A DNA stretch of 64,000 bases, from the IMG/VR virus record IMGVR_UViG_3300031884_000939, positions 94,514 to 158,513 of that record; one strand, given 5' to 3'. The notes under the pieces were generated by a model. That model ran no database searches, was not told where the DNA came from, and was given only the letters and a program-made list of their open reading frames with translations. Both the position numbers and the translations under genes were made by a program. Shown in pieces: positions 27,225 through 51,441 of the stretch. Each line of letters begins with the position of its first letter. The stretch's first letter is position 1. This DNA comes from a virus.

Positions 27225-27512
27225 TTATTCTACAACACCTATGATTTCTTCTTCTTTAAGCACCAAATAGTCTTGTCCATCTACTTTAACTGGAGTACCT
27301 GCGCCCGGGCCAAACATAATAACATCGCCTACTTTAACGGATAATGGAATTAATACACCTTGGGCTGTGACACGACCTGGGCCCGCGGATATAATAGTTC
27401 CTTGATTATTCTTTTCAGCATTACTATCGGGAATAATAAGTCCTGAGCTAGTTTTAGTTTCTGGAGGAGCACGATGTATTAGTACACGATCTGCTGTGGG
27501 ATTAAATGCCAT
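27225..27512 (-). CDS. groES: GroES co-chaperonin
   Basis: The 95-residue protein matches GroES along its length: PTADRVLIHRA at the start, the mobile loop region ETKTSSGLIIPDSNAEK (about 18-34, with the GroEL-contacting hydrophobic LII), and VKVGDVIMFGPGAGTPVK. It caps a GroEL ring during folding. No GroEL gene is in the window, so it would act with the host's, as phage T4 gp31 does for capsid folding. It follows clpP by one base in the same operon. Confidence 0.93.
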   Translation of the reverse strand: MAFNPTADRVLIHRAPPETKTSSGLIIPDSNAEKNNQGTIISAGPGRVTAQGVLIPLSVKVGDVIMFGPGAGTPVKVDGQDYLVLKEEEIIGVVE

Positions 27513-28977: not shown

Positions 28978-30081
28978 TTAGTTAGAACACTGGGATTTTG
29001 GCACCAATTTCAGCTGAGTTTGTGAGGCTAAATTCATTTGCTCGGGTGTAGTTCTTAGCTGTATAGCTAACTCCCGGGAAAAGTTGCCATTTATGTTAAT
29101 ATCAGGAGATCCATAGTTTCTAATATTAACAAAGTACTTGCCATCTGTCCAGCCATTTTCCTGATGGTCCAACACAGGCCAATAGAAACATTCCCTGTGC
29201 ATAACTTGGTTTTGATTAGTAAGTACTGTAAGTTCGATAGCAGGGTTGGATAATATCATAGTATTGATTAAGGCATTGGCTCTTGCTACATCACTGAATC
29301 CTAACTTACCTCCGTTACCTCCCATAAACCCACCTGTGGCTATTGCGATAACTGCGGCATTCTGATTACAGTTACCCCAGCATGATCCTGCTCGTGGATC
29401 TTGGGCCGTTGCCTTAAGAGCTTCCCACAATGAATTTAAGTAATCGCGATTCCAACTTAACTTAAATGGGATAACCAATGTGCCATTGCGATTGTTGTCA
29501 AACTTTAATTGTGCTGGTTGTAATTCAATATTCATACCACGACGATAAAAATCGTTTAGTACTATACCTACTAACCTATCGCCTTGACTTCTTTCATACT
29601 GTAATGTGCTTAGTTGTGCCGCGGCCTTGGCGCCTTCTAAGTCCCCAGATACTTTACTTTCGTTTAATAGTCTGTTGGCAATGGCACTCTTTTTAATCCA
29701 AACTTTCATCTTAGTTTGGTATCCGTTATTGGATGGTTCTTGATTTACTATTTCGTATCGGGTAACATAGCCACTAGCATAACTGATAATTTCATCTCTA
29801 GTTAAATGACTATTGTTAACTTCGGTTTCAGATGCTATTACGGATCCCACTGCTTGCTCAACGGCTATACGAAATCCGTTTAGTCTAGATTCTTCTAGTG
29901 TAGCGCCTTCGCCAGCTACTTCGATATAATAAGTCTTTTCGCCTTCCCAGATGATCCACTGACCTAGCGATATAATAATACCTAATGGGTTAGGCATTAG
30001 CATGGCACCAGTAAAAGCAAACTGCGCTTGTGCTGAAGCAATTAAGCCAACACAAGCGAGTCCTGCTAAGATGCGACGCAT
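28978..30081 (-). CDS. Secreted FlgT-like N-domain protein
   Basis: The 367-residue protein has a signal peptide (MRRILAGLACVGLIASAQAQ). Residues 52-115 (EVAGEGATLEESRLNGFRIA then VEQAVGSVI...) resemble the N-terminal domain of FlgT and related LPP20-neighbour proteins that sit in the periplasm. The C-terminal 200 residues are unrecognised but contain two nearby cysteines (GSCWGNCNQN). It follows an LPP20-type lipoprotein gene by one base, so the pair probably works together at the outer membrane. This is very unusual in a phage. Confidence 0.7.
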   Translation of the reverse strand: MRRILAGLACVGLIASAQAQFAFTGAMLMPNPLGIIISLGQWIIWEGEKTYYIEVAGEGATLEESRLNGFRIAVEQAVGSVIASETEVNNSHLTRDEIISYASGYVTRYEIVNQEPSNNGYQTKMKVWIKKSAIANRLLNESKVSGDLEGAKAAAQLSTLQYERSQGDRLVGIVLNDFYRRGMNIELQPAQLKFDNNRNGTLVIPFKLSWNRDYLNSLWEALKATAQDPRAGSCWGNCNQNAAVIAIATGGFMGGNGGKLGFSDVARANALINTMILSNPAIELTVLTNQNQVMHRECFYWPVLDHQENGWTDGKYFVNIRNYGSPDININGNFSRELAIQLRTTPEQMNLASQTQLKLVPKSQCSN

Positions 30082-30082
30082 C

Positions 30083-30799
30083 TTACATTGCCATCAGTTT
30101 GCCGATTTCAAGACGGGCGGCGTTGTTTTTCTTGTCCCAACGCATTACAACCTTAACTGCTTTACCATCGTCGATAACTGTGCCTTCTTTAAGATACAGT
30201 CCACTAAGGATACCGCGGTTGGAGTTAGTAATTGTAGTACTCAACTTAGAAGCAATTTTAAGAGCATTGTTTCTAATAGCCGCATTTTCTTTACTATCAG
30301 TGCCACCATTAGTAACGGCTGAATCATCATCAGAAGCAATTAAGTCATCGGCTGTACCAGTATTGCCTTGGGTAGTAGGTTTGTTAGTAGAAAACTTATT
30401 ACTGTTATTATCCTGTGCGTGTTCCAAGTTTTCGGAAATCATAGTAACAGAAGTTTTAGAAGCAATCGTTTCTTTGTTAATAAAATCGTTTAATGATTTT
30501 TTAGCTTCTAGTTCTGCCGCACGAAACGCTTCGCGAGCTGAGTTATGTGACCCACCCCATGTAGGAGCATAGCCACTTACTTCTACTGCTTCGATCTGTC
30601 CACTTAGATTATAAATGATCTTAACACCATCTCGTTTAAAATCATTTACTGCTACTCGTTGATCCGAGATAGGCGCACTAGCATTAGAGCCTGGTTCAAT
30701 ACCTGCGCCACTACTTAAACTATTAGATGGAGCAGAACCACAACCTACTAATGTAGTTACTAAGCCAGCCATTGCCAAAATTAAAATTCTTTGTTTCAT
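30083..30799 (-). CDS. LPP20-type lipoprotein
   Basis: From ATG 30799 (MKQRILILAMAGLVTTLVGC) the 238-residue protein has a lipobox (LVGC), so Cys20 should be lipidated; Gly-Ser after it favours the outer membrane. Residues 70-120 (AVEVSGYAPTWGGSHNSARE, AFRAAELEAKKSLNDFI) match the LPP20 fold pattern of a strand then an A-x-x-A-A-x-x-A helix. A low-complexity Asn/Thr/Asp linker follows. It is first in the operon behind the promoter at 30831-30859. Confidence 0.75.
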   Translation of the reverse strand: MKQRILILAMAGLVTTLVGCGSAPSNSLSSGAGIEPGSNASAPISDQRVAVNDFKRDGVKIIYNLSGQIEAVEVSGYAPTWGGSHNSAREAFRAAELEAKKSLNDFINKETIASKTSVTMISENLEHAQDNNSNKFSTNKPTTQGNTGTADDLIASDDDSAVTNGGTDSKENAAIRNNALKIASKLSTTITNSNRGILSGLYLKEGTVIDDGKAVKVVMRWDKKNNAARLEIGKLMAM

Positions 30800-30830
30800 A
30801 ATTAACCTCAAGGTTTGTTATACTTTACAT

Positions 30831-35773: not shown

Positions 35774-35781
35774 GCTAAATA
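35774..35781 (+). promoter_or_regulatory. T4-like late promoter octamer
   Basis: GCTAAATA lies 21 bases before the ATG at 35803, so the cyclase operon appears to be late-transcribed. Confidence 0.65.
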
Positions 35782-35802: not shown

Positions 35803-36060
35803 ATGAAAGACTTTTTAACACACGACGAGCGCATTGAAGAAGGTACAGCATTACGAGATTTGGAAAGAAAAGTCCATTGGCTAATGTTTCAATTGGCCCA
35901 AGCAGGACTCGCTACAGATTTAGCTGGCAGCTCATATGCGTTCCCAGATGATTTAAATAAACAAGATATTCAAAATGATGCTATGGCAGTTGCTATGAAT
36001 GCTCAGCACGATAATGGACTCACCGCTGGGTGTGGCGCATTACAAAATAATCAAGAATAA
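35803..36060 (+). CDS. Conserved small phage protein before cyclase
   Basis: From ATG 35803 (preceded by TTGGAGACAC) the 85-residue protein starts MKDFLTHDERIEEGTALRDL. It has a helical, coiled-coil-like stretch (LRDLERKVHWLMFQLAQAGL). The upstream TTG reading start is unlikely because it lies in the ribosome-binding site. It ends one base before the cyclase start, so the two are translationally coupled. Confidence 0.65.
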   Translation: MKDFLTHDERIEEGTALRDLERKVHWLMFQLAQAGLATDLAGSSYAFPDDLNKQDIQNDAMAVAMNAQHDNGLTAGCGALQNNQE

Positions 36061-36061
36061 A

Positions 36062-38110
36062 ATGCTTCGCAAACTTTTACTCAGTCCATGGACTGCGTTA
36101 ATTACTGTAGGATTAATTACAGCTCTCCGTATTGCCGATCCTACATTTGTCGAATCAGTTCGACTACGCTATTTTGATACCTTAGTTACTAGTAAGGCAC
36201 CAGAAGTTATTGGCGTTCATGTTGTAAACATAGATGAAAAGGCATTAGAAAAATATGGACAATTTCCTTTCAGTCGGGATATCTACGGACGCATTATCTC
36301 CGATCTTTATAATCGCAACGCTGGTCTTGTTGTGTTCAATATTCTTACTCCTGATGGTGATCGTATGGGCAGGGATGGAGCGTATGTACAAGCATTGGGA
36401 AGGTTCCCATCAATTCTGCCAAACTTGGGTTCATCTCAAAATCGCAACAAAGCGAAAGTTCCGGGATCCGTTGTAATAGGTCCTTACAATAATCAAATAG
36501 TAGAATACCCAGGGATCATTGCTAACATACCTGCTGTAGAAAATGCTGCCGCCGGTGTTGGTATTGTAAACACTTTTCCTGAGATAGACGGAGTAGTACG
36601 CCGTGCCCCATTAGTAATTGCTAGTCAAGGTAAATTATATCCTAGTTTAGCTATGGAAACATTACGAGTGGCTGGAGCCGATACTACCTTCCAAGTTAAG
36701 CTCAACGAGAACGGTGTTGAGAAAATGCGTATTCCTGCGTTTGGTCCTATCGCGACAGACAGTCTAAGTCGTATATGGATTGATTGGAGTATGGTTCCCG
36801 AAGTTCATAGCCTTACTGACTTACCTAAAGATTTTGATGGCGAGATAGTCATTGTTGGCGTAAGTGCCGCAGGTCTCGCTAATCCAGTAGCGACAAGTAA
36901 GGGCGAGATGTTGCCACAAGAATTACAAGCGGCTGTACTAGGTACGGTTATTGCTAATAAAGATCGACCAGTTATCACTCGTCCAGATTGGGCTGATGGA
37001 GCAGAAGTCATTGGTTTAGTTATATTAGCTTTGGTATTATTATTTTTAACAAGGTATGTGTATGTTGGACTTATTGCTAGTATTAGTTTCATTGTTCTTC
37101 TTTTGTGTGCTGGGCACTACAGTTATTCGCTTTATAGCTACTTACTTGATGTTACTATTCCTGTCGGTGGTCTTATACTCGTATCTCTTCACGCCTATGG
37201 GGTTAAATTTGTAAGCGAGTTCTTACAGAAGCAAGCAATCAAGAAACAGTTTGCTGGATATGCTAGTCCGACTGTAGTTAAGTTGTTACAAGAAAATCCA
37301 GACTTAATCAAGAAGGGTATCAAGCGTGAAGTATCTATCTGCTTTAGTGACCTTCGTGGCTTTACTCCGTTAGGCGAATCGTTTGGTGATGATGTAGGCG
37401 GACTTACTCGAGTTATGAATGGCTACATGGATGCAATTACACAACCTATCCTAGAAGCTAACGGTATGGTTATTAAGTACATTGGTGATGCGTCAATGCA
37501 CATACACAATGCTCCTATCGATGATCCGGATCATCCTAAGACTGCGGTAGCAGTTGGATTAAAGATGGTCAAGGCTGTTAAGGAATATAGTAAACAGTTA
37601 GAGGCACAAGGTCGTCCTGGTGTTAAGATGGGTGCTGGTATTAACACAGGCTTAGGCTACATTGGCGAAATGGGCTCTACTCAGCGTCACAGTTACGATG
37701 TACTGGGCGATGCTGTATCAACTACAGCTCGTATCGAAAGTAAGTGTAAAGAATATGGATGTGTATTATTGGTTGGAGAAGAAACTGTTAAGCGTTGTGC
37801 GGACGATTACTTCTTTTTAAAGATTGACGACTTGACTGTCAAAGGTAAAAGTGTCGGAGTTGGTATCTACACAGTACTAGATGATGTTACGCCTGAATAT
37901 GTCTTAGCTGGTAAAACACATGATAAAATGCATCAACTATATAGACTTCAAAAGTTTGATGCGGCTATTATATTATGCCAAGAACTTAAAGCAGAGTTCG
38001 ATGGCAAGATGTCAGTTTATTATGATATGTGGATTGAGCGTTGTGAGTTCCAGAAGACGCAGGACCTGCCCGAAGATTGGAACGGCGTCTTCATTGCGAC
38101 TAGCAAATAA
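36062..38110 (+). CDS. CHASE2-domain adenylate cyclase
   Basis: The 682-residue protein has an N-terminal membrane anchor (about 10-28), a periplasmic CHASE2 sensor (about 30-300) and three transmembrane helices (about 316-390). A class III nucleotide cyclase domain occupies about 425-590. Metal-binding Asp residues are visible in ICFSDLRGFT and KYIGDASMHI, and the base-recognition Lys and Asp in VIKYIGD and YDVLGDAVSTTARIES. The usual transition-state Asn (VN-x-AAR) is Ser here, while the following Arg is kept. The product is inferred to be cAMP. It is preceded by ATG 36062 after a coupled small gene. Confidence 0.88.
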   Translation: MLRKLLLSPWTALITVGLITALRIADPTFVESVRLRYFDTLVTSKAPEVIGVHVVNIDEKALEKYGQFPFSRDIYGRIISDLYNRNAGLVVFNILTPDGDRMGRDGAYVQALGRFPSILPNLGSSQNRNKAKVPGSVVIGPYNNQIVEYPGIIANIPAVENAAAGVGIVNTFPEIDGVVRRAPLVIASQGKLYPSLAMETLRVAGADTTFQVKLNENGVEKMRIPAFGPIATDSLSRIWIDWSMVPEVHSLTDLPKDFDGEIVIVGVSAAGLANPVATSKGEMLPQELQAAVLGTVIANKDRPVITRPDWADGAEVIGLVILALVLLFLTRYVYVGLIASISFIVLLLCAGHYSYSLYSYLLDVTIPVGGLILVSLHAYGVKFVSEFLQKQAIKKQFAGYASPTVVKLLQENPDLIKKGIKREVSICFSDLRGFTPLGESFGDDVGGLTRVMNGYMDAITQPILEANGMVIKYIGDASMHIHNAPIDDPDHPKTAVAVGLKMVKAVKEYSKQLEAQGRPGVKMGAGINTGLGYIGEMGSTQRHSYDVLGDAVSTTARIESKCKEYGCVLLVGEETVKRCADDYFFLKIDDLTVKGKSVGVGIYTVLDDVTPEYVLAGKTHDKMHQLYRLQKFDAAIILCQELKAEFDGKMSVYYDMWIERCEFQKTQDLPEDWNGVFIATSK

Positions 38111-39457: not shown

Positions 39458-39772
39458 TTACGCACTACCGCCGGAGGCTTCGTTATCGTTTGATGTTTTA
39501 TTGATTTCTGTTTCTGCTTGTACTCGTTCTGCTTCAATACTTTTGCCGCGCAGGTGTAATACAGTATTAACTTTTTGATTTAATCGAATCAAATCATTGT
39601 CCAACATACGGATGCGGTCGATAAGAGCAATAAGAACTGTGTTAGCATCATTGATTACAGGTTTGATTTCTTTGGTTGCCCATTCCCAAACCATGTGAAT
39701 GATAAAGCCCATACCAACCGCCATAACGATTGGGAATCCATATTTGCTAATTGCGTCTGCTATTCCGCCCAT
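39458..39772 (-). CDS. Small membrane protein, paralogue A
   Basis: The 104-residue protein has one N-terminal transmembrane helix (YGFPIVMAVGMGFIIHMVWE, about 11-30) and a coiled-coil-like region (IDRIRMLDNDLIRLNQKVNT) followed by a polar tail. The GFP-(I/V)-V start, the RIR/RVK-x-x-(L/M)-(D/N)-x-D-(L/V)-IR and the LxLR elements are shared with 40071-40352, showing duplication. Similar proteins in T4-like phages are called holin-like or virion membrane proteins without proof. Confidence 0.65.
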   Translation of the reverse strand: MGGIADAISKYGFPIVMAVGMGFIIHMVWEWATKEIKPVINDANTVLIALIDRIRMLDNDLIRLNQKVNTVLHLRGKSIEAERVQAETEINKTSNDNEASGGSA

Positions 39773-39870: not shown

Positions 39871-40071
39871 TCAACTACCTTGTTCATTCTTAGCCGCACC
39901 ATCTTCTAAAAACTTAACCAACGGGTCTATTTTAATTAACAGTTGCCGACCATTTACATTTACAAACTTAAATAAATCTCCTGATTTCCAACCTAGCTTG
40001 TCAGTGTTAAGCTCTTCGTCTAATACGATTTTATCTTTAGTTAAGTACCACTGGTAATCGTAGTGAAACAT
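39871..40071 (-). CDS. Hypothetical small phage protein
   Basis: The 66-residue protein starts MFHYDYQWYLTKDKIVLDEE and contains LGWKSGDLFKFVNVNGRQLL, a small beta-barrel-like pattern (W-x-x-GD) common in uncharacterised phage proteins. Its start shares a base with the stop of the upstream paralogue B gene. Confidence 0.65.
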   Translation of the reverse strand: MFHYDYQWYLTKDKIVLDEELNTDKLGWKSGDLFKFVNVNGRQLLIKIDPLVKFLEDGAAKNEQGS

Positions 40072-40352
40072 TAATCTCTTCTCGCATCTGTTTTACCGTC
40101 GGCACGACTAATACGATCCACATCTGGGCGTAAACCTAATGCATTGCTAACTACTGTATCGATACGGATGACATCATGGTTCATAGTTTTAACACGGTTG
40201 TCTAATGCTGTAATAATGCCAGCCATACTTTTTACTGCGGATAACACTCCAGCTAATAATAGCTTAATTGTAAGATACACAAAATAGCCGCCAGCTAGCG
40301 CCGCAACGACTGGAAAACCTAGATCACCTACGATCTTGAATACTTCATTCAT
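40071..40352 (-). CDS. Small membrane protein, paralogue B
   Basis: The 93-residue protein starts MNEVFKIVGDLGFPVVAALA, with a transmembrane helix at about 12-36, then ITALDNRVKTMNHDVIRIDT VVSNALGLR, aligning with paralogue A at 39458-39772. It lies directly after curlin-like 2, with its own late-type octamer (40383-40390) and GGGG ribosome-binding site. Confidence 0.65.
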   Translation of the reverse strand: MNEVFKIVGDLGFPVVAALAGGYFVYLTIKLLLAGVLSAVKSMAGIITALDNRVKTMNHDVIRIDTVVSNALGLRPDVDRISRADGKTDARRD

Positions 40353-40382: not shown

Positions 40383-40390
40383 TATTTAGT
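40383..40390 (-). promoter_or_regulatory. T4-like late promoter octamer
   Basis: ACTAAATA overlaps the stop of the curlin-like 2 gene, 30 bases before the ATG at 40352. A TATAAT word lies just downstream. Confidence 0.55.
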
Positions 40391-41174
40391 TGCCCTGGCG
40401 TACAGTTACCGTTCCGCAGGTAGTTACACAAGTTTGGGTAATACTATAATTTTGACCTCCAGTTTGAGTTAAATTCACACTAGCAGGAGCGCCAGCGTTT
40501 ATTAAGGTTATACTAGCACTATTAGGAGTACTACCGCTTTGATTTACAATAGCACTATTTCCATTTCCGGATTCTGATACATTTAAGTAATGACCAGCTG
40601 ATCCAGATTGCGTGGCTGATACTGTATTACTATTTCCATTAACGCTAGCAAATAGTTGCATTCTTGCCGTACCTGTTTGGGTAATCCCAACTGTGTTTAA
40701 GTCGCCTATAATATTTAAAGTTGCTGATTGGCCAGAGTTTGATGTAGTATTTTGTTGACTCGTAGTAATCATATTATCTGATCCATTAACATAAACATAT
40801 TGATAATGGCCACCAACATCGAGCCCAGTTGATAGTCCAACAACATCTGTTCCTTGGTTTAAATTTAAAATATTCCCAGGACCAATAACTGTCATATCAA
40901 TTTTATTTTTACCAGTGTTAGCAATTGGATCACCTTGTCTTGTTGTGATTTGATTTGCGCCACCACTAACTACAGCAATATGCGTACTTGAATTGAGAGT
41001 ATTGCCGCTTGCTCCTTCTAGAATATTGCTTGTACCGTTTTGTATAAGATTATAAGTGTCGCCTGTACCTATTTGATTAATATAGATAGAATTTGTGGTA
41101 ATAGGTTGTGAATGTGCCATAGGACTACAATATCCTAACCCAGCAACAAGAATGATTAATAAAAATTTTACCAC
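40386..41174 (-). CDS. Curlin-like repeat protein 2
   Basis: The 262-residue protein has a signal peptide (about residues 1-22, ending AHSQP). Curlin-type repeats (N-x-I-x-x-x-Q-x-G-x-x-N) follow, for example NSIYINQIGTGDTYNLIQNG, NTVGITQTGTARM, NTVSATQSGSAGH and NSAIVNQSGS. Such repeats stack into amyloid beta-solenoids in CsgA/CsgB. The C-terminus carries two cysteines (TCVTTCGTVTVRQGN), unusual for a curlin. It overlaps the TorF-like gene by 7 bp and is probably exported through the CsgG pore encoded 3 kb upstream. Confidence 0.75.
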   Translation of the reverse strand: MVKFLLIILVAGLGYCSPMAHSQPITTNSIYINQIGTGDTYNLIQNGTSNILEGASGNTLNSSTHIAVVSGGANQITTRQGDPIANTGKNKIDMTVIGPGNILNLNQGTDVVGLSTGLDVGGHYQYVYVNGSDNMITTSQQNTTSNSGQSATLNIIGDLNTVGITQTGTARMQLFASVNGNSNTVSATQSGSAGHYLNVSESGNGNSAIVNQSGSTPNSASITLINAGAPASVNLTQTGGQNYSITQTCVTTCGTVTVRQGN

Positions 41175-41854
41175 GATTTACTAACTCCTAACACCCAAGC
41201 GTTGCGATATAACTCATGCCCATCGACTGTATTAACTGTTTTAAAGTCTGCGCTTAGACCGCTGTTCCAATAATATGAAACAGATACATCTACGTCAAAT
41301 ATGTTATATGTAGGGCCAACTCGCCAGTCAGTGTAACTTAACCACGTAACAGGACTAACTGTTCGGCCAGCATGACTTACTAGTGTTATCTCTTTTATAG
41401 GCAAATAATTGTCTACGCTGTAATATTGTGTGCCTACAGTATTAGCAACACCAAACTCATTAGTTAAACTGCGATAATATTTAAATGTAAAATAAGGAAC
41501 ACGTAACTGAGCAAAAACTTCATTAGTATAATAGTTAGTAGCTCCAGGATAGTTATAAGTGTAATCCCCTACAAATATTTTTACATCATCATTAAATTTA
41601 TAATGATAGCCACCATACACATCAGCTTCTCCGCCGATACCATTATTGTATTCCTGTTTGCTTACTGTATTAAGTTTATTGCCCAACCATACTCCGCTAT
41701 CGTCACGATATTCTATTTGACTAGCTATACTTGGCGCCATATTAGATTGACTAACACCACGGAATCTATAATCGCTAACTACTCCTTCGGTTATATCAAT
41801 TGTACCTGCGTAGACAGGAGAACAAAATAATAAAATTAATAATATTCGTTTCAT
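41168..41854 (-). CDS. TorF-family outer membrane porin-like protein
   Basis: The 228-residue protein has a signal peptide (MKRILLILLFCSPVYAG) followed by ITEGVVSDYRFRGVSQSNMA, the characteristic start of TorF-type putative porins (a Y-x-(F/Y)-RG-x-S-x-S motif). Amphipathic strands follow and the last residue is a Trp, as in outer-membrane barrels inserted by BamA. It sits between the FecR-like and curlin-like 2 genes (1 bp from the former) and could serve transport across the outer membrane. Confidence 0.8.
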   Translation of the reverse strand: MKRILLILLFCSPVYAGTIDITEGVVSDYRFRGVSQSNMAPSIASQIEYRDDSGVWLGNKLNTVSKQEYNNGIGGEADVYGGYHYKFNDDVKIFVGDYTYNYPGATNYYTNEVFAQLRVPYFTFKYYRSLTNEFGVANTVGTQYYSVDNYLPIKEITLVSHAGRTVSPVTWLSYTDWRVGPTYNIFDVDVSVSYYWNSGLSADFKTVNTVDGHELYRNAWVLGVSKSW

Positions 41855-41855
41855 A

Positions 41856-43016
41856 TTAGTTCTGCTTCGTTGTTATAAAAGTATTGCCACCTTGATTAAC
41901 ACGGTTAGTAATTGTTACATTGCCCGCCTGTGTTTGGCTAATAGTACTATTTTGTCCATGTGGGGTTGTAACGCAACTAGTATTACTATTAGCATCTCCT
42001 CGACATAACTGTACTGATATTGGATCTACTGTGGCTACCACACCAGTTTTACTATTGTAATCGGGTAACAGTTGATTTTTAGGAGGCGCAAGCAAATTAC
42101 CAAATTCTTGTGCTAGCTGTTCATTCATTAATTGTAATATACTTTCAAGAAAATCTTGGTCTAATAAATTACGCTGTAAGGCATTAGAATATATTTGATT
42201 GTTTTCAGCGGCTAGTACACTACTTAAATCAACTCCTTGTAAAAAATTTTGACTTAAGGCCGTAACATTTTGATGCTTTTCGTCATCTCTTTCTTTTGTC
42301 GCATTTTTAATTTCTTGTGGAGGTGCTAATATTAATATGTTACTTATTGCGTCTTCTGATAGATGTAATGTTGTTGGTTTTGTCGGAGCGACATTTCGAG
42401 CTACCACTTTGGTTCCTTGAAATGGTTGATCTAATAATACACTACCCGCTTCATTAATAACTTCAATTTTTCCAGTTTTACACAAACGCTCTATTTCGTC
42501 TGGAAGCATATCTTTACGAGGGCAAGACGGTAATAAAATAACAGTACTTGCGCCAAGCTCATCTACTGTAGCGGTAAAGTCAGTACCCCGGACAGCCACA
42601 GTAGCAGTAGGAGTATTAATAGCCACGCTATTAGGATTGTTGTGAGCAATGGCACCACTAGCGTATCGAACAGTACCCGAAGCCATGTTAAGAGCCAGTT
42701 TACCAACTCCTTTACTTTTTGGATCATATACGAATTCATCAATAACGAGTTTAGAATTTTCATTTACTTGTACTTTTGTATCGTCGGCGAAAACAATTAC
42801 AACTTTACCTTGTTTCGTGTTTATTGCGTCGGCCATCTCCACCCCAGTCCCCTTTGTCCCGGGTAGAGTCGTCTTGGCTCTTTGAATCTGAGCTGGATTG
42901 TTTACTTGTTCGGTAATAGTTCCTATTGCGGCTTCGCAGTTCGTGTAAGTATTGAACAAGCCCACGCAAAACATGACTATCCATAATTTTAATCTCCCTT
43001 TTCGAACCAATAACAT
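41856..43016 (-). CDS. FecR-domain protein with curlin-like C-terminus
   Basis: The 386-residue protein has a signal sequence (KGRLKLWIVMFCVGLFNTYT). A periplasmic FecR domain occupies about 45-200 (NTKQGKVVIVFADDTKVQVN, ASGTVRYASG, INTPTATVAVRGTDF) and a helical middle region follows. The last 40 residues read like curlin repeats (NSTISQTQAGNVTITNRVNQ then GGNTFITTKQN). FecR domains sense or scaffold at the envelope and are common beside CsgG/LPP20 genes in bacteria. The fusion suggests contact with curlin-like subunits. Confidence 0.8.
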   Translation of the reverse strand: MLLVRKGRLKLWIVMFCVGLFNTYTNCEAAIGTITEQVNNPAQIQRAKTTLPGTKGTGVEMADAINTKQGKVVIVFADDTKVQVNENSKLVIDEFVYDPKSKGVGKLALNMASGTVRYASGAIAHNNPNSVAINTPTATVAVRGTDFTATVDELGASTVILLPSCPRKDMLPDEIERLCKTGKIEVINEAGSVLLDQPFQGTKVVARNVAPTKPTTLHLSEDAISNILILAPPQEIKNATKERDDEKHQNVTALSQNFLQGVDLSSVLAAENNQIYSNALQRNLLDQDFLESILQLMNEQLAQEFGNLLAPPKNQLLPDYNSKTGVVATVDPISVQLCRGDANSNTSCVTTPHGQNSTISQTQAGNVTITNRVNQGGNTFITTKQN

Positions 43017-43163: not shown

Positions 43164-44069
43164 TTAATGATGTTGTACGATTGTCCAGTTGTTACTACCA
43201 CCACTACTTTGAATATTTGTGGTATTATTACCTGTTGTGGCACTTTGGGTAACATTAAATGTATTGCCGCTTCCAGTCAATCCTAGCACAAAAGTATTAT
43301 CTGCTGTGCCTGTTTGACTAGCTGTAAGACTATTGCTAGATCCTGTTAAAGAACCAACAACAGATATTCCAGTAGCATTATATCCGCCTACAGTAATAGT
43401 ATCACCATTTGTTCCACCGGTTTGTGTAATGCCAAAAGTATTACTTGCTCCAGTGCTATTTAATGTAACTGCTGCGTTAGTAGCTACAGTAGTTGAGTTA
43501 CCTTGAACAAGATTTAAACTATTATTGCCACCGCCGTTCATTACAATGGTATCAGCATTACTTGTGCCATATATACTAGCAACTACAGAATTATATGTTC
43601 CACCAGCAGTAGTAGCTGTGAAGTTATTTCCTGTACCTAATAAATTAATATTTAAATTAGAATAATTGCCAGTTTGTGTTACTGCGATATTATTACTTGC
43701 GCTAGTATCAGAGCCATCGTTATTACTATTAATAACAGCGGTAGCATTATTACCTGTTACAGAGTAACTATAATTGTTACCGGTTAATCCATTAGCTACA
43801 CTTGTTTGTATTCCAAATTGTAATGTATTACCAGTACCAATTTGACTAACTGATACGATATTATTGTTACCAACAATAACGGCTGGCGTGGTAGCACTTG
43901 TACCTGTGCCTTGTACGCCTTCTACTGCGTTTCCTGCGCCATCTTGTGTAACAGAAATACTACTGTTACCTCCTGATTGATTAATGTAGATGGTATTATC
44001 AGCACCAAACACATTTAAACTTGCTACAGCTAGCATTGTTATTATTGTTTTCGCTAGGTTTATTTTCAT
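43164..44069 (-). CDS. Curlin-like repeat protein 1
   Basis: The 301-residue protein has a signal peptide (MKINLAKTIITMLAVASLNVFGA) and is then built almost wholly of curlin-like repeats: NTIYINQSGGNSSISVTQDG, NIVSVSQIGTGNT, NIAVTQTGNYSN, NTFGITQTGG, NSLTASQTGT and NTFNVTQSAT. The Q-x-G-x-x-N spacing is the amyloid-forming signature of CsgA/CsgB. It lies directly downstream of csgG and csgF, so it is the likely main secreted substrate. It is about twice CsgA's length. Confidence 0.82.
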   Translation of the reverse strand: MKINLAKTIITMLAVASLNVFGADNTIYINQSGGNSSISVTQDGAGNAVEGVQGTGTSATTPAVIVGNNNIVSVSQIGTGNTLQFGIQTSVANGLTGNNYSYSVTGNNATAVINSNNDGSDTSASNNIAVTQTGNYSNLNINLLGTGNNFTATTAGGTYNSVVASIYGTSNADTIVMNGGGNNSLNLVQGNSTTVATNAAVTLNSTGASNTFGITQTGGTNGDTITVGGYNATGISVVGSLTGSSNSLTASQTGTADNTFVLGLTGSGNTFNVTQSATTGNNTTNIQSSGGSNNWTIVQHH

Positions 44070-44096: not shown

Positions 44097-45059
44097 TTAT
44101 TTTACAATTCCTATTTTTGCCTCTACATCTGCTGGTAAACTCGGATTTTTAGACATACCGAGTGGAATTGTTGCGGTGCCGTTTGCTTCTGGATTTGGAA
44201 CTACTGGTGCTACTTGGACATAATCCCAAACACCTTTGCGTTGCCCTTCTTTAATTAATTCTACTACACTTGATTCAATAGTTGTTTTAAGTGCTATTGT
44301 TGTAGCTTCGTTAATTGTTAATCCAGATTCAAATTGAAATATTGCTGCTGCCGCATCTGTTGCGCCGTTGTTACTAGCGCCTACTTGTTTAACTATACTG
44401 CTTATGCCACCTGGATCAATACTTTTAAAAATGGCAATACTATCTGCGGTACTGTAAACAATCTTTGTAACGGTTACCGACGCTAAGATTTTACCAGTGT
44501 TTACACTTACTGCTCGTAAACTAATTGTAATAATATCTTTACTGTATTGAGTCGATGGGCCAATACCTAGGAAATTATATCCAATGCCCCCTGACTCTAA
44601 CCCAGTGTCGTAACCAATAATCCCACCTTCAATAATAACTCCAGCAAATTGTAGTGGCATTAATTTCTGTGCGTCTTTACCTTCATAGGCTTGGCGCATC
44701 TGTGTAATAATTAATCTTTCTTTAGTAAGCGCATCAATATTACCGCGCTCGACTACTTCAAACCATTGACCTTTACCTACATCTTGTAAGGCACGAATCA
44801 GTAAAGCATCTCCGCCTTGTGTAACCGCTGTACTAAAACTAGCAATACCCGGAACGGCTTTACGCTGTCCAGTTTTATCAGCGAACTGATATACTGCTAC
44901 AGTAAGTTTGCCTTTGGCTGGAGGAGGTACAGCATCAAATTCTTTTTGTAGTTCATTTTTAGGAATTTGCGGTTTATGATCCGGGACACCAATTTTCTGG
45001 CCTATAGCACAACCAGATAACATAACGATTAAGACTAATGTAGGAAATAATTTACGCAT
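44097..45059 (-). CDS. csgG: CsgG-like outer membrane secretion lipoprotein
   Basis: The 320-residue protein has a lipobox (MRKLFPTLVLIVMLSGC) and the full CsgG pattern: LTVAVYQFADKTGQRK, the channel-loop segment GIASFSTAVTQGGDALLIRA, WFEVVERGNIDALTKERLII, and IIEGGIIGYDTGLESGGIGY. CsgG forms a nine-subunit outer-membrane pore that exports curlins. By hand alignment, E. coli constriction Phe56 is kept (FSTAV) but the Tyr51 and Asn55 positions differ. The C-terminal ~50 residues extend past the family core. It shares one base with the csgF stop. Confidence 0.92.
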   Translation of the reverse strand: MRKLFPTLVLIVMLSGCAIGQKIGVPDHKPQIPKNELQKEFDAVPPPAKGKLTVAVYQFADKTGQRKAVPGIASFSTAVTQGGDALLIRALQDVGKGQWFEVVERGNIDALTKERLIITQMRQAYEGKDAQKLMPLQFAGVIIEGGIIGYDTGLESGGIGYNFLGIGPSTQYSKDIITISLRAVSVNTGKILASVTVTKIVYSTADSIAIFKSIDPGGISSIVKQVGASNNGATDAAAAIFQFESGLTINEATTIALKTTIESSVVELIKEGQRKGVWDYVQVAPVVPNPEANGTATIPLGMSKNPSLPADVEAKIGIVK

Positions 45060-45526
45060 TATTGACCGCTTCCTGTGATATTAAATGAGCCAAGCGGAAC
45101 ATTAATTGTAGTAATATTTCCTACATTGTCTGTTACTTGAAGTTGAATTACCGATCCAGTATTAGTCCAGAAAATTGTATTGCCTTGAAAATTCATTTGT
45201 CCGCTAGTAGAGCTTCCACCGGCAAACATAGCTGTAGCTAAATTTTGACTAATCTGTGCGTAAATGCGAGATTCAAGATTAGTTAAAAATTGATTGATTG
45301 GTGTGTTAGCGGCGTCAGCTTTTGCTTGGGCTTGGGCTGCAATTAGAGCCTGTTGAATTGCCTGTGAACGAGCATATTGTTCGTTTTCTAAAGCCATTTG
45401 AAATGAGCCGTAACCGTTTCCGTTAAGACTTGGGCTTTTAAATTGATAATCCGCTATAGGCGTTGCGACGGCTTGTAAGGAGATCGCAGATAAACATAGC
45501 AGAGTCGTTCTTATTATTATTTTCAT
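45059..45526 (-). CDS. csgF: CsgF-like curli nucleation/pore partner
   Basis: The 155-residue protein has a signal peptide (MKIIIRTTLLCLSAISLQAVA). DYQFKSPSLNGNGYGSFQMA then follows, the N-terminal motif of CsgF that in E. coli inserts into the CsgG pore and narrows it (F-x-NP-x-FGGN-type). The C-terminal strands (FWTNTGSVIQLQVTDNVGN then ITTINVPLGSF) match the family's beta-sheet end. It heads the operon behind a 17-bp dyad. CsgE and CsgC were not found. Confidence 0.9.
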   Translation of the reverse strand: MKIIIRTTLLCLSAISLQAVATPIADYQFKSPSLNGNGYGSFQMALENEQYARSQAIQQALIAAQAQAKADAANTPINQFLTNLESRIYAQISQNLATAMFAGGSSTSGQMNFQGNTIFWTNTGSVIQLQVTDNVGNITTINVPLGSFNITGSGQ

Positions 45527-45620: not shown

Positions 45621-45971
45621 TTATTTTGCTATAATTCCTGTCCAGGACTCGTCTGGCTCGTTTTCTTTGTATTCTATAAGGCGTTTAGCAAGGATTTCAT
45701 AGAAGGTATCAACTTGTTTGCCCCAGAAGCCCATTAAATGTCCAATGGCTTGAGTACAGAAATCCCAGTTACGCTTACGATATTGCTCCATCATATCAGA
45801 ATGAAGTTTTTTGAATTTGTCAGCTTTAGGCAGTTCTTCAAGGGGTATATTTTCGATAATACAGTACACAGTAATGGGAGTACTGCTTTTAATAGTAACG
45901 GTATCTAACTCAAGTACAATATACTTCTCGCTAAGTTGTTCTGCTTCGCTGGTGCCAAAAATAATATTCAA
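45621..45971 (-). CDS. Conserved phage protein, function unknown
   Basis: The 116-residue protein starts MNIIFGTSEAEQLSEKYIVL and contains VYCIIENIPLEELPKAD and YRKRNWDFCTQAIGHLMGFW, blocks I recognise from a family widespread in T4-like marine phages with no known role. A short hairpin region separates it from the csgF-like gene, so it may be outside that operon. Confidence 0.72.
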   Translation of the reverse strand: MNIIFGTSEAEQLSEKYIVLELDTVTIKSSTPITVYCIIENIPLEELPKADKFKKLHSDMMEQYRKRNWDFCTQAIGHLMGFWGKQVDTFYEILAKRLIEYKENEPDESWTGIIAK

Positions 45972-45997: not shown

Positions 45998-46786
45998 ATG
46001 ATATTCAACTTTGATTTAATTTCCGACATCCACAGAGAAACTTGGGCAAACTTTGATTGGGAAGGTCAACCGACTGCGCCATATTGTATTGTAGCAGGTG
46101 ATATAGCAAGAGACCGAGCATTAGTAATAGATACCTTAGAACAACTTAGCGAAGTATATCAAGGAGTGTTTTACATTGACGGTAATGATGAACATAAAGA
46201 TTACGGCGAAGATTTAGGTCGTAGTTATGCTGAATTAAATGATTTAATAAAAGCAATGCCCAAGGTTGTGTATATGCAAGACAATGTTGTAATCATAAAT
46301 GGTATTGCTATTGTAGCAACAAATGGGTGGTGGACTTACGACTTTGATTGTAACTTAGAATTAGATCAATCAATACAGTGGGTACAACAGAAAGATAGTA
46401 TTACACAGGAAGCGGCGATAAACATCAATGGTGTAGGGTACAACGATGCGGGATACATGGCAAATGGTGTACAAAAATTACAAGCCCACAGGGATGTCAA
46501 AGCAATCATCATGGTAACGCATACCGTGCCCCGAGCAGAAATTATCGAACATGATTTAGAATTAATTGATACTTGGCGATTTAACTCTATGGGCAATAGT
46601 CATATGACTAATGCGTTACGAGAAGACTTAGAGCATAAAGTTAAACTTTGGTGTTTTGGTCATTATCATAGACCAGTTGATACTATAATCGATGGTATTA
46701 GATATGTTAGCAATCCTCGGGGAAGAGGCGATACTCAATATTCTCAAGTGGCCTACTATCCCAAAAGAATTAGCGTAAAAATTTAA
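45998..46786 (+). CDS. Metallophosphoesterase 2
   Basis: The 262-residue protein carries the calcineurin-like pattern: D10-... in LISDIH (Asp9/His12 region), AGDI at 33-36, GNDEH at 62-66 (Asp replaces the usual His of GNHE), MVTHTVP and CFGHYHRP near 225. The deviation in the third motif could change metal choice or weaken activity. It is a single plus-strand gene between two minus operons. It is only distantly similar to the enzyme at 1379-2299. Confidence 0.85.
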   Translation: MIFNFDLISDIHRETWANFDWEGQPTAPYCIVAGDIARDRALVIDTLEQLSEVYQGVFYIDGNDEHKDYGEDLGRSYAELNDLIKAMPKVVYMQDNVVIINGIAIVATNGWWTYDFDCNLELDQSIQWVQQKDSITQEAAININGVGYNDAGYMANGVQKLQAHRDVKAIIMVTHTVPRAEIIEHDLELIDTWRFNSMGNSHMTNALREDLEHKVKLWCFGHYHRPVDTIIDGIRYVSNPRGRGDTQYSQVAYYPKRISVKI

Positions 46787-47152: not shown

Positions 47153-47593
47153 TTACGATTCGTATGTAATAGCAATAGTTTTAGGCTGAAGTGCTTCAGG
47201 AATATGGCGCTCTAACTTAACCGTTAAGATACCATTCTTTACCGATGCTGTAATTACTTCTACATGATCGGCTAAACTGAATGTACGGATAAAGCGTCTG
47301 TCACTAATACCTTTGTGTGTATATTCTACACCTTCTGGTAATTCTTCTGGTAACTTTTCGCCAGTAATAACCAAATTACTATCACGAACTGCTACTTCGA
47401 TTTCACCTTGAGTAAATCCAGCTACAGCCACTTGAACTTCAAACGTGTTCTCGCCGGTTTTCAAAATGTTATATGGCGGATAGTTTTGTGTACTAGCCGT
47501 ATCAATTTGATTAATAATTCGATCAAATAGTTTATCGACTCCGATAGAGTTACGATAGAATGGGTTTAAATCTAATGCTGTGAGTTTAGTCAT
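47153..47593 (-). CDS. Hsp20/IbpA-type small heat shock protein
   Basis: The 146-residue protein has the alpha-crystallin core: NPFYRNSIGVDKLFDRI at the N-terminus, YNILKTGENTFEVQVAVAGF, and VKNGILTVKLER (the A-x-x-x-n-G-v-L motif). The C-terminal KTIAI is a possible I-x-I/V-type anchoring motif. It holds unfolded proteins for DnaK, whose gene lies directly upstream. Small heat shock proteins are common in T4-like cyanophages. Confidence 0.92.
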   Translation of the reverse strand: MTKLTALDLNPFYRNSIGVDKLFDRIINQIDTASTQNYPPYNILKTGENTFEVQVAVAGFTQGEIEVAVRDSNLVITGEKLPEELPEGVEYTHKGISDRRFIRTFSLADHVEVITASVKNGILTVKLERHIPEALQPKTIAITYES

Positions 47594-47658: not shown

Positions 47659-49557
47659 CTACTTTTCAGTAAAGTCAGCGTCTACGACATTGTCGTCATC
47701 GGCTGGCTTAGCTGACTCTTGTGGCTCAGCAGCAGGTTGTGCTGCTTGTGCCTTTGCTTCTTGAATAGCCTGCGAGGCTGTTATTAAAGCGGTTACTGCC
47801 TTTTGGATTTCGTCCCTATCAGTACCTTTGACTGCTTCTTCTACAGCCTTGATAGCTGTGTTGATATCGTCAATTTGTGTACCGCTAAGGCTACTGCTAG
47901 TTTCATCTAGGTCCTTACGGATCTCGTGTACCATAGCATCAGCAGAGTTGCGAGCTTGGATGAGTTCAACTTGTTTCTTATCATCTTCCGCATTAGCTTC
48001 TGCTTCTTTAATCATCTTTTGAATTTCATCATCTGACAATCCTGAGTTTGCTTTAATAGTAATCTTGTTTTCTTTGCCTGTGGTTTTATCCTTGGCTTTA
48101 ACACTTAAGATACCATTTGCGTCAATATCAAGCTCAACGTCAATTTGTGGTTGACCTCGGCGTTGTGGCTGGATGCCTTCTAAACTAAACTCGCCTAAGA
48201 GTTTATTGTAAGAGCATAACTCGCGCTCGCCTTGATAAACTTTAATTGTAACTGCTGGTTGGTTATCTTCGGCAGTACTAAACACTTGATTAGCCTTAGT
48301 AGGAATCGTAGTGTTCTTTTTAATCAACTTAGTCATTACACCGCCCATAGTTTCAATGCCTAATGACAATGGGGTAACATCAAGTAACAATACGTCTGTA
48401 CGGTCGCCGCCTAATACAGCACCTTGAATAGCCGCACCAGCCGCTACTGCTTCGTCTGGATTAACATCTTTGCGTGGTGCTTTACCAAACAGCTTCTCAA
48501 CTGTTTCTTGTACTTTAGGCATACGAGTCATGCCACCAACAAGAATAACCTCGTCGATATCGCTGTTACTTACACCCGCATCAGACATGGCAGTCTTACA
48601 TGGGCCTACGGAACGTTGAATCAATTCATCAACTAAACTTTCAAATTTAGCACGAGAGATGGTAACATTCAAATGCTTAGGACCACTTGCGTCTGCTGTA
48701 ACATATGGTAAGTTAACAGTAGTAGACTGTGCTGAAGACAATTCAATCTTAGCTTTTTCTGCGGCATCTTTCAAACGCTGTAATGCTAACACATCACTTT
48801 TAAGGTCACATCCAGATTCTTTCTTAAACTCATCACAGAGGTAATCCATAATGCGTTGGTCAAAGTCTTCGCCGCCCAAGAATGTATCGCCGTTAGTTGA
48901 CAATACTTCAATCTGCTTGTCGCCATCCACATTGGCAATTTCGATAATGGACACATCAAATGTACCACCACCTAAGTCATACACGGCAATTTTACGATCC
49001 TTAGTACTTGCTTTATCAACGCCATATGCTAGTGCGGCCGCTGTTGGCTCGTTGATAATGCGTAGAACTTCTAAGCCCGCAATTTTACCTGCGTCTTTGG
49101 TAGCTTGTCTTTGGCTGTCATTGAAGTATGCTGGTACAGTGATAACGGCTTGTGTAACTGTCTCACCTAAATAGTCTTCGGCAGTTTTTTTCATCTTACG
49201 CAATACTTCAGCAGATACTTGTGGTGGTGCCAAATCTTGGCCATTTGCTTGAATCCAAGCATCACCATTATCAGCTTCGATAATTTTGTAAGGCATCAAG
49301 TTGATGTCTTTTTGTACAGCTTCTTCTTTAAATTTACGACCAATCAAACGCTTTGCAGCATAGATTGTGTTCGATGGGTTTGTAACTGATTGGCGTTTAG
49401 CTGTAGCACCAACTAATACTTCGTCGGCTGTATAGGCGACAATACTTGGTGTAGTTCTAGCACCTTCTGCGTTTTCAATTACTTTTGGAATGTTATTTTC
49501 GATTACGGAAACACAGGAATTTGTAGTTCCCAAATCTATGCCGATGATTTTGCTCAT
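47659..49557 (-). CDS. dnaK: DnaK (Hsp70) chaperone
   Basis: The 632-residue protein is a complete Hsp70: [13 protein letters not shown] at 6-18, [18 protein letters not shown] (phosphate 2), [14 protein letters not shown] (adenosine motif), a linker [18 protein letters not shown] and a full substrate domain and lid. It ends [11 protein letters not shown]. It uses ATP to refold proteins with DnaJ and GrpE, neither of which is in the window. It is close in length to bacterial DnaK, suggesting acquisition from a host. A late-type octamer lies at 49622-49629. Confidence 0.96.
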
Positions 49558-50032: not shown

Positions 50033-50254
50033 TTAAAATAATTTTTTAGGTAATTGTTGATCGCGGAGTTTTTTGCGCCATCTAGCTTTGGCAGCGCCTT
50101 TTTTACGCTTGCGTTCAGTAGTTGGTTTTTCGTAAGTTTCACGGGCACGAAGGTCATCAAGTAATCCAGATTCCTGGACTTTCTTTTTGAATTTTCTGAG
50201 GGCTTTTTCGACGTTGCCGTCTTTAACTAATACCCCTTTACCGTAATACGTCAT
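50033..50254 (-). CDS. rpsU: Ribosomal protein bS21
   Basis: The 73-residue basic protein matches bS21: [20 protein letters not shown] near the N-terminus, then an Arg/Lys-rich C-terminal helix ([17 protein letters not shown]). bS21 joins the 30S subunit near the anti-Shine-Dalgarno and affects initiation. A phage copy could exchange into host ribosomes and favour phage mRNAs, an idea proposed for other phages. It lies between clpX and the SpeD-like gene with 0-4 bp junctions. Confidence 0.93.
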
Positions 50255-51441
50255 TCATTCTCCTGAGCAAGTGTTCTAGGAGTATTTACTAGATTTGACG
50301 TAATTGAGACGGTTTTTATACTTTGCTTACGATAGCGTGGCAAATCGTACATATGGGGTAGCAATATGCGTTCTAATTCAGAATGTAGGCCACGAGCCCC
50401 AGTTTTTGTTTTTAAAGTGCGTTCAGCTATAAGATCCAATGATTCATCTTCAAAATATAGTTCTACGCCATCTTGATCAAATAGCCACTGATACTGCTCT
50501 ACAAAATTGTGTTTAATATCGACTAAAATACTAATTAGCTGTTCTTTGGTCAACCCGTGTAACGATACAGAACTGCTAAAGCGACCAATAAATTCTGGAA
50601 TCATGCCATACTTGACTAAATCGTCTGGAGTTACTATTTCGTTGTCTACGCTTAAATCTGTAGTAAGATTTGCCCCAAACCCCATAGCGGTTCCTTGGAT
50701 ACGATTTTTAACTATTTTTTCTAGTCCCACAAATGCGCCGCCAGCGATGAATAAAATATTAGTGGTGTCAACTTCTATAGTAGCTTCAGTTTTTCTGCCG
50801 CCAGTAGGGTTAATTTTAATTTTAGTACCTTCTACTAATTTAAGCAAGGCCTGCTGAACACCTTCGCCTGATACATCACGACTAACCGTAGCGGATTCGG
50901 ACTTGCGAGCAATTTTATCAATCTCGTCTAGGAAGATAATGCCACGCTGAGTGCGCTCAAGGTCATTATCAGCATTTTGATATAATCTTAAAATAACGCT
51001 ATCAACATCGTCGCCGACATATCCAGCTTCAGTTAATGTAGTAGCGTCGGCTATTACGAATGGGACATTTAAATATTCTGCTAAGGTTTTTGCTAATAAT
51101 GTTTTACCGGTGCCTGTCGGCCCAATCATTAATATATTAGATTTAGCAACTTCGTTGTCTGCGCTACTAATTCTTTTATAATGATTAGTAATTGCTACAG
51201 ATAACACAATCTTGGCTTCGGGTTGACCAACTACATACTGGTCGAGATATTCTTTAATCTCGCGAGGATTAGGAATTTCTATTGTTGAAGAAGATTTAGC
51301 AGAATGCTTTTTATCTTTTAATAGTTTATCGCAAAAGGTTACACATTCGCTACATATAGCAACTTCGTGTCCTACAATTAGTCTACCTACGGAACTTTTA
51401 TGTTTTCCGCAAAATGAACAGTGATCAATTTTTTCTGACAT
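50251..51441 (-). CDS. clpX: ClpX unfoldase
   Basis: The 396-residue protein is a full ClpX: zinc-binding Cys8/Cys11/Cys30/Cys33, Walker A GPTGTGKT (107-114), pore loop GYVG (140-143), and Walker [10 protein letters not shown] (168-176). [11 protein letters not shown] loop corresponds to the IGF-type ClpP-docking loop, here MGF. It unfolds substrates into ClpP, and the phage encodes its own ClpP at 27514-28137. It overlaps rpsU by 4 bp. Confidence 0.94.

Follow-up and report, generated by a model that had tools for sequence, protein, structure and literature searches.

A predicted CHASE2 nucleotide cyclase encoded beside a curli-FecR fibre module in a virus, and a type I secretion counterpart in other phages

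Curli (type VIII secretion) gene clusters with a FecR gene, genes labelled 'HK' and an adenylate cyclase gene have been described in pelagiphages, both marine myo- and podoviruses, in versions that the available part of the report places closest to the alphaproteobacterial ones and that lack the accessory genes csgE, csgC and csgD (PMC9599517). Moreover, csgF and csgG have been found in phage according to the available text of another study (PMC7029224). The association of curli genes, FecR and a cyclase is already known, therefore, because the pelagiphage clusters are published. In these clusters csgF, csgG, a csgA/B-like gene, FecR, a second curlin gene and the cyclase follow one another in an order that matches the locus described here. 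The report differs from our analysis in that FecR was taken as an iron regulator; as far as its available part goes, the term 'CHASE2' is absent from the main text, and neither a type I secretion (T1SS) version nor an Asp/Ser active site nor an exchange of domains is described (PMC9599517). For the phage Melnitz, the available text states that csgA and csgB are missing and argues for a role of CsgGF in lysis (PMC9004378); contrary to this, the GenBank record of Melnitz has two curlin-repeat proteins, a FecR protein and a cyclase annotated. Both Melnitz and HTVC008M have the arrangement smA-smB-csgF-csgG-curlin-FecR-curlin-cyclase, where smA and smB are small membrane proteins, with all the genes on one strand. 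Among cellular systems, CyaD1/Clr of S. meliloti has a CHASE2 cyclase too, and the Clr-linked genes include SMc02177, which encodes a FecR-domain protein, but this system is cellular and, in the available text, comes without a fibre-export module (PMC5498481).

We have analysed a window of 64,000 nucleotides, positions 94,514 to 158,513 of the IMG/VR record IMGVR_UViG_3300031884_000939; like IMG/VR contigs, which are mostly incomplete, this 158,513-base record is itself a fragment. The features of the window that matter here are the following (coordinates, strand, description and basis).

35775..35781, +, CTAAATA, a late-promoter-like heptamer before the small upstream ORF
35803..36060, +, small ORF directly 5' of the cyclase (ATG at 35803; frame open from 35791)
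36062..38110, +, predicted CHASE2-class III nucleotide cyclase, 682 aa (Pfam, AlphaFold2 model, fold match)
36110..37036, +, CHASE2 periplasmic sensor domain, residues about 17-325 (PF05226, model)
37322..37852, +, class III cyclase catalytic domain, residues about 421-597 (PF00211, fold match)
37697..37699, +, Asp546, the substrate-specifying position (alignment)
37718..37720, +, Ser553, at the position of the transition-state Asn (alignment)
39458..39772, -, smB, small membrane protein (PHROG 18771)
39871..40071, -, 66-aa ORF between smA and smB, of a cluster found in 44 loci
40071..40352, -, smA, small membrane protein, paralogue of smB (PHROG 18771)
40386..41174, -, curlin-repeat protein 2 (blastp matches to the Melnitz and HTVC008M curlins; under the cut-off in Pfam)
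41168..41854, -, Gcw_chp protein inserted in the operon (Pfam)
41856..43016, -, FecR-domain protein with a C-terminal curlin-like strand (Pfam, model)
43164..44069, -, curlin-repeat protein 1 (PF07012)
44097..45059, -, CsgG outer-membrane pore (PF03783, 2.1e-41)
45059..45526, -, CsgF (PF10614, 7.5e-14)
45621..45971, -, stand-alone 116-aa copy of the C-terminal part of the cyclase

The initial annotation of this DNA had proposed a full sensor-membrane-cyclase protein at 36062-38110, and the analysis bears this out. The ORF runs from a first ATG at 36062 to a stop at 38108-38110, in a frame open from 35999, and its product matches both CHASE2 (PF05226, E=1.3e-34) and Guanylate_cyc (PF00211, E=2.6e-16) in Pfam. 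In the AlphaFold2 model (31-row alignment, mean pLDDT 89, pTM 0.62) the CHASE2 domain is placed between TM helices: an N-terminal TM-like helix leads into a mixed periplasmic domain, three TM-like helices follow (311-397), and the cytoplasmic part consists of the cyclase domain (418-610) and a C-terminal helical tail. In fold, the cyclase domain matches P. aeruginosa CyaB (Z 26.4, 1.9 A, 189 residues), and CyaC (Z 25.5) and the guanylyl cyclase Cya2 (Z 25.4) match as well. By predicted fold and by family the domain is a class III nucleotide cyclase; since the transition-state Asn is not kept, the claim covers fold and family, and normal catalysis lies outside it. The small ORF directly upstream has a homologue in one other of the loci compared (L008). 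Before it lies CTAAATA, the 7-mer with the strongest enrichment ahead of predicted ORFs (9 occurrences against 1.1 expected, for 118 ORFs, some of them spurious). The T4 late promoter consensus octamer is TATAAATA. A late octamer had been reported ahead of this operon, and what stands of that is an enriched motif 5' of the small ORF; the motif differs from the T4 consensus, and its enrichment would be compatible with a late-type promoter, with no proof of one.

The conserved catalytic residues, whose presence was to be checked by alignment, are intact: the window cyclase has the two metal-binding Asp, the substrate Lys and the transition-state Arg, and D430, K472, D476, D550 and R557 are invariant in 67/67 distinct phage cyclases. 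The Ser that had been read in place of the transition-state Asn is indeed there, as S553, paired with D546. The Asp/Ser pair is found in 65 of the 67 proteins, the exceptions being L062 (Thr/Asn) and HTVC008M (Ser/Asn), and in 38 of 39 additional window-type sequences, the other one having Thr/Asn; HTVC008M-type sequences are Ser/Asn in 75/76, and the remaining one is truncated. No mixed pair at the substrate and transition-state positions occurs among these phage sequences. In cells, all 28 CHASE2 proteins whose output domain is a cyclase have Ser/Thr and Asn (39 bacterial-genome rows, minus 6 with another output domain and 5 phage-like ones, L085, L086, L088, L090 and L105). A DNA pattern for the VST form of the site is absent from 385 genomes of one bacterial class and 369 of another (754 sampled) and present in 2 of a set of 8 genomes, only those that yielded phage-like contigs; the pattern for the canonical form is present in 32/58 genomes. 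Since the Asp/Ser pair has a single origin on the tree, co-adaptation of Asp546 and Ser553 gets no independent support from their coupling. Without the transition-state Asn, activity may be low. We found no paper on the mechanism of a class III Asn/Ser variant, and the Asp/Ser active site, with its VST motif missing from the 754 sampled bacterial genomes, appears from these alignments to be new within the literature searched.

A protein of this kind had been called rare in phages, a view that does not survive the searches. Among 50,697 phage records, 9 match the cyclase, 6 of them over 80% or more of its length: four are from Melnitz, at 50% identity, and two from HTVC008M, at 34.5%; the proposed search for homologues in further phages thus returned both. 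Cyclase relatives are encoded by 320 of 336 stretches in one IMG/VR scan, a profile scan gave at least 465 and a scan with the HTVC008M protein at least 585 (each among the first 600 matches listed), the sets overlapping, so that contig counts are not summed. A phrase search of the literature for phage-encoded cyclases found none, and papers that combine phage, CHASE2 and adenylate cyclase were unrelated. The Melnitz cyclase has the Asp/Ser pair of the window, whereas that of HTVC008M has the canonical Ser/Asn.

The identities differ from one domain to the other. L062 is 73% identical to the window in CHASE2 and 47% in the catalytic domain, and Melnitz is 36% and 73% identical, respectively. 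In the CHASE2 tree the window and 13 other rows form one clade (SH-aLRT 99); in the catalytic-domain tree the same 14 rows, a group fixed from the CHASE2 tree before the second tree was built, need 9 changes, and a single clade is rejected (AU p 4.8e-106), both being quick trees. The sensor and catalytic domains thus appear to have been shuffled between phages, which is new within the literature searched. Window and L062, with Asp/Ser and Thr/Asn on similar sensors, would be natural test enzymes for the class III mechanism.

What the initial annotation described, a sensor-cyclase with Ser for Asn, stands, but it missed the context, a curli-FecR surface-fibre module. CsgG, CsgF and curlin-repeat subunits are all present in the window. 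Fifty-six viral loci extend 9.9 kb or more upstream of the cyclase; 54 of them have csgF, csgG, curlin and FecR genes together, and 53 of the 54 share this gene order and strand, by profiles that were derived from the very loci counted. Of the exceptions, L041 has none that we found, L028 has csgG at the edge of the locus and L005 is rearranged like the window. When all neighbouring ORFs were clustered without a preset list, the same module families ranked first. In the window the cyclase gene is inverted and lies outside the curli transcription unit, unlike in Melnitz and HTVC008M. The inserted Gcw_chp protein (41168-41854) has no homologue in the other viral loci compared. Of the 55 loci that extend 4.5 kb or more downstream, 51 have one or more copies of phrog_18771, the smA/smB family, on that side in convergent orientation. 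Both smA and smB are short and have a single hydrophobic stretch, at the N-terminus, and proteins of this type have no match to Pfam or to a kinase family. The genes directly before csgF in two further loci (L083:15270-15908 and L084:6900-7462) are smA/smB homologues. The 'HK' genes placed before csgF in the available part of PMC9599517 probably correspond to smA/smB, with no kinase match.

Two further observations concern the region upstream of csgF. The 116-aa copy at 45621-45971, about 0.5 kb upstream of csgF, consists of the last catalytic strands of the cyclase and its C-terminal tail; its cluster is found in 12 loci, most of which have a CHASE2 of the type seen in the window, and it is possibly a regulator or a relic. 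A phosphodiesterase partner at 45998-46786 was considered and rejected, the only match being a weak one to Metallophos and the family lying within about 2.3 kb of csgF in 5/20 loci where both occur.

The FecR protein of the window matches PF04773 (1.7e-10); this is the sole Pfam match, and the cytoplasmic anti-sigma domain that classical FecR proteins have at the N-terminus, ahead of the TM helix, is absent. Its model, of moderate quality (pLDDT 66.5), has an N-terminal helix (3-21) followed by the FecR domain, which matches the PupR signalling domain in fold (Z 15.5). It also matches 5ix9, the MpAFP-type cell-surface anchoring domain of an antifreeze protein that is an RTX adhesin, at Z 7.1 over 73 of 76 residues, the next row being at 4.7 and chance folds occurring at such Z, and with a Foldseek probability of 1.00 (E 0.01). 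By sequence, a profile of the window FecR finds no solved relative, 5ix9 included; the best sequence match of the FecR region in a giant protein of another phage contig (L336) is 5ix9, and it is weak (E=0.007). A resemblance of FecR to an RTX adhesin anchoring domain, suggested by models and sequence, would be new within the literature searched. A curlin-like C-terminus is seen in 42 of 51 distinct phage FecR proteins, 64/103 curlins and 81/1361 of the remaining ORFs, and in none of the cellular FecR ends inspected.

A sister module is found in other phage contigs, outside the window. Two loci filed under a Rickettsiales MAG (L090 and L091) have the cyclase gene followed by smA/smB, and upstream of the cyclase L091 encodes a giant FecR protein, an outer-membrane efflux protein (OEP), an ABC membrane part and HlyD. 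A scan of IMG/VR with this cyclase gave 302 relatives in 303 stretches. In 38 sister loci 700 bp or more precede the cyclase; the gene directly upstream is HlyD in 30 of these and a curli gene in 8. The order FecR-OEP-ABC-HlyD-cyclase holds in 9/9 sister loci that have HlyD and extend 6.6 kb or more upstream; two smA/smB copies lie downstream in 69/81, PHROG 18771 being found there too. No ATPase domain was seen in the ABC part in the two copies scanned, and the OEP protein has no match in the 50,697 phage records. FecR is N-terminal in three further giant proteins by Pfam, with cadherin in L296 and L336 and with RTX repeats in L318, and the FecR domains of the curli-type and T1SS-type modules align throughout. 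All 68 long cyclases of the sister set are Ser/Asn, and T1SS-type, curli-type and cellular cyclases form three clades on the tree. Since baseplate/tail-fibre connector proteins are encoded in L331 and L336, these are tailed phages. L292:1-10536 holds the T1SS and curli modules side by side with one cyclase each, and L355 has a similar dual arrangement, the locus ending within the first cyclase. We found no paper on phage-encoded type I secretion with FecR, a first listing of the papers on pelagiphages, T1SS and RTX being screened by title; the sister T1SS module, with its core of FecR, cyclase and small proteins and its giant cadherin/RTX adhesin, is new within the literature searched. LapA-type RTX adhesins (5ix9, DvhA) seem alike in having an N-terminal beta-rich, possibly retention-like domain, helices, long repeats and a TolC-type channel, and their N-terminal domains are held in the periplasm, as the available text describes (PMC13090378); they differ in being under LapD/LapG control, as against the cyclase proposed here, in that the family here is FecR and in that the curli version is not T1SS.

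Cellular CHASE2 cyclases (Neomegalonema, Parvularculaceae and cyanobacteria; L095-L113) share CHASE2, the cyclase domain, the C-terminal tail and a FecR neighbour with the window, but are about 24-30% identical over the protein and have Ser/Thr and Asn. A FecR gene lies in the flank of 21 of 38 such loci, in several directly upstream on the same strand (17 by a phage-trained HMM and 4 among ten neighbours run in Pfam, all ten of which were FecR); at the other 17, where part of the neighbours were examined, FecR was not found. The cellular loci have no HMM matches to csgF, csgG or curlin. Phage genes can look cellular, because phage-like contigs sit in bacterial MAGs: L085, L086, L087, L088, L090, L091 and L105 are such contigs, in MAGs of Rhodobacteraceae, Pirellulales, Flavobacteriaceae and Rickettsiales.

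We consider it somewhat probable that the cyclase is the signalling arm of a phage surface-fibre module, with CHASE2 reading FecR and cAMP as the most likely product. The infected host would export curlin-type fibres via CsgG/CsgF, and the FecR protein, with its curlin-like strand, would be the end at which the fibre or pore is held in the periplasm. The cyclase, seated in the inner membrane, would read the FecR domain by means of CHASE2 and switch its cytoplasmic class III domain, which would most likely convert ATP to cAMP. In the sister phages, the core of FecR, CHASE2 cyclase and smA/smB would work with type I secretion, FecR forming the N-terminus of the giant adhesin, the expected place of a retention domain. 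FecR would be, in both modules, the held fibre end that CHASE2 reads. The domains, catalytic residues, linkage, FecR-adhesin fusion, sister modules and cellular FecR-CHASE2 pairs were computed, and we infer the contact between FecR and CHASE2, the direction of signalling, the product and the effector. Because CyaD1 without CHASE2 makes cAMP constitutively, according to the available text (PMC5498481), CHASE2 may restrain the enzyme. Points against this model are the inverted cyclase gene of the window, which stands apart from the curli transcription unit, the missing cAMP receptor in the record, the weak match to 5ix9, the moderate FecR model, the lost transition-state Asn and the 17 cellular loci where FecR was not found. 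If the model is true, a second messenger would read out the anchored end of a surface fibre, the puzzling phage curli operons and the bacterial FecR-CHASE2 gene pairs would both be given a function, and phages would install an adhesion-sensing circuit in the cell they kill. A wider reading, which we put forward tentatively, is that of a portable outside-in second-messenger system of tailed phages, in which a FecR retention domain on the phage fibre, a CHASE2 cyclase as reader, smA/smB parts and shuffled domains would go with a curlin strand exported via CsgG or a cadherin/RTX adhesin exported via a TolC-type T1SS, one large clade having a Lys-Asp-Ser-Arg active site not seen in sampled cells; the infected cell would then tell the phage whether the fibre is out, anchored or pulled.

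The gene might, instead, be an auxiliary one that acts on its own, raising cAMP and reprogramming the catabolite control of the host via host CRP, but we regard this as unlikely. Its intact class III site of the Lys-Asp (ATP) type would suit such a role, as would the lack of a phage cAMP receptor: the 158,513-base record, the sole record searched, has no match to the cNMP-binding family PF00027 (control positive in 11/14 genomes), a candidate receptor in the phage was rejected on this ground, and any effector would be the host's for the same reason. The tight linkage with fibre-export genes in two kinds of module and the FecR partners in cells speak against it and indicate, together, a dedicated input. 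That the module controls lysis, with CsgG as a gated pore or pinholin, as proposed for Melnitz in the available text of PMC9004378, whose authors favour such a role of CsgGF, with smA/smB as holin-like proteins and with the cyclase timing the event, seems quite unlikely: smA/smB have the size and the single hydrophobic stretch for it and lie beside the module, but they are of a type without a Pfam match, curlin subunits and FecR are constant members of the module, and lysis would have no need for the giant adhesin-like protein that is exported by the sister module. Equally, it is improbable that the cyclase is degenerate, of low activity or non-catalytic, and retained as a scaffold or nucleotide sensor. 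The replacement of the transition-state Asn by Ser throughout most of the phage proteins speaks for such an enzyme, but the other catalytic residues are invariant, the Asn is kept in the sister clades and dN/dS between the window cyclase and L003 is 0.037 in the catalytic domain (0.083 overall, 0.131 in CHASE2; dS is close to saturation). Counter-defence, in which the enzyme would flood or jam cyclic-nucleotide immunity or make cCMP, cUMP or cGMP, would fit the altered substrate and transition-state pair but is very improbable, a membrane sensor and constant fibre-export neighbours being unexpected for a decoy and the Lys-Asp pair being that typical of ATP-using cyclases.

As to whether the virus is T4-like, the 158,513-base record has no match to Gp23 or gp20, but both controls were silent too, and none to Terminase_6N, for which the control was positive in 6/14; Gp23 is found in 6 of 20 large relatives and in 0 of 13 sister records. 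A two-gene unit at 28978-30811 (-), encoding a lipoprotein-like protein of 242 aa and one of 367 aa with no Pfam or PHROG match, has homologues only in L005 among the loci compared. A cell wall hydrolase (PF07486; 58132-58656, -) with an N-terminal hydrophobic stretch is a candidate lysis enzyme. The window also encodes DnaK (47659-49557; Hsp70, E 2.9e-255), Hsp20 (47153-47593), a GroES-type Cpn10 (27225-27512) and a ClpX-like protein (50251-51441), a large chaperone set for a single phage.
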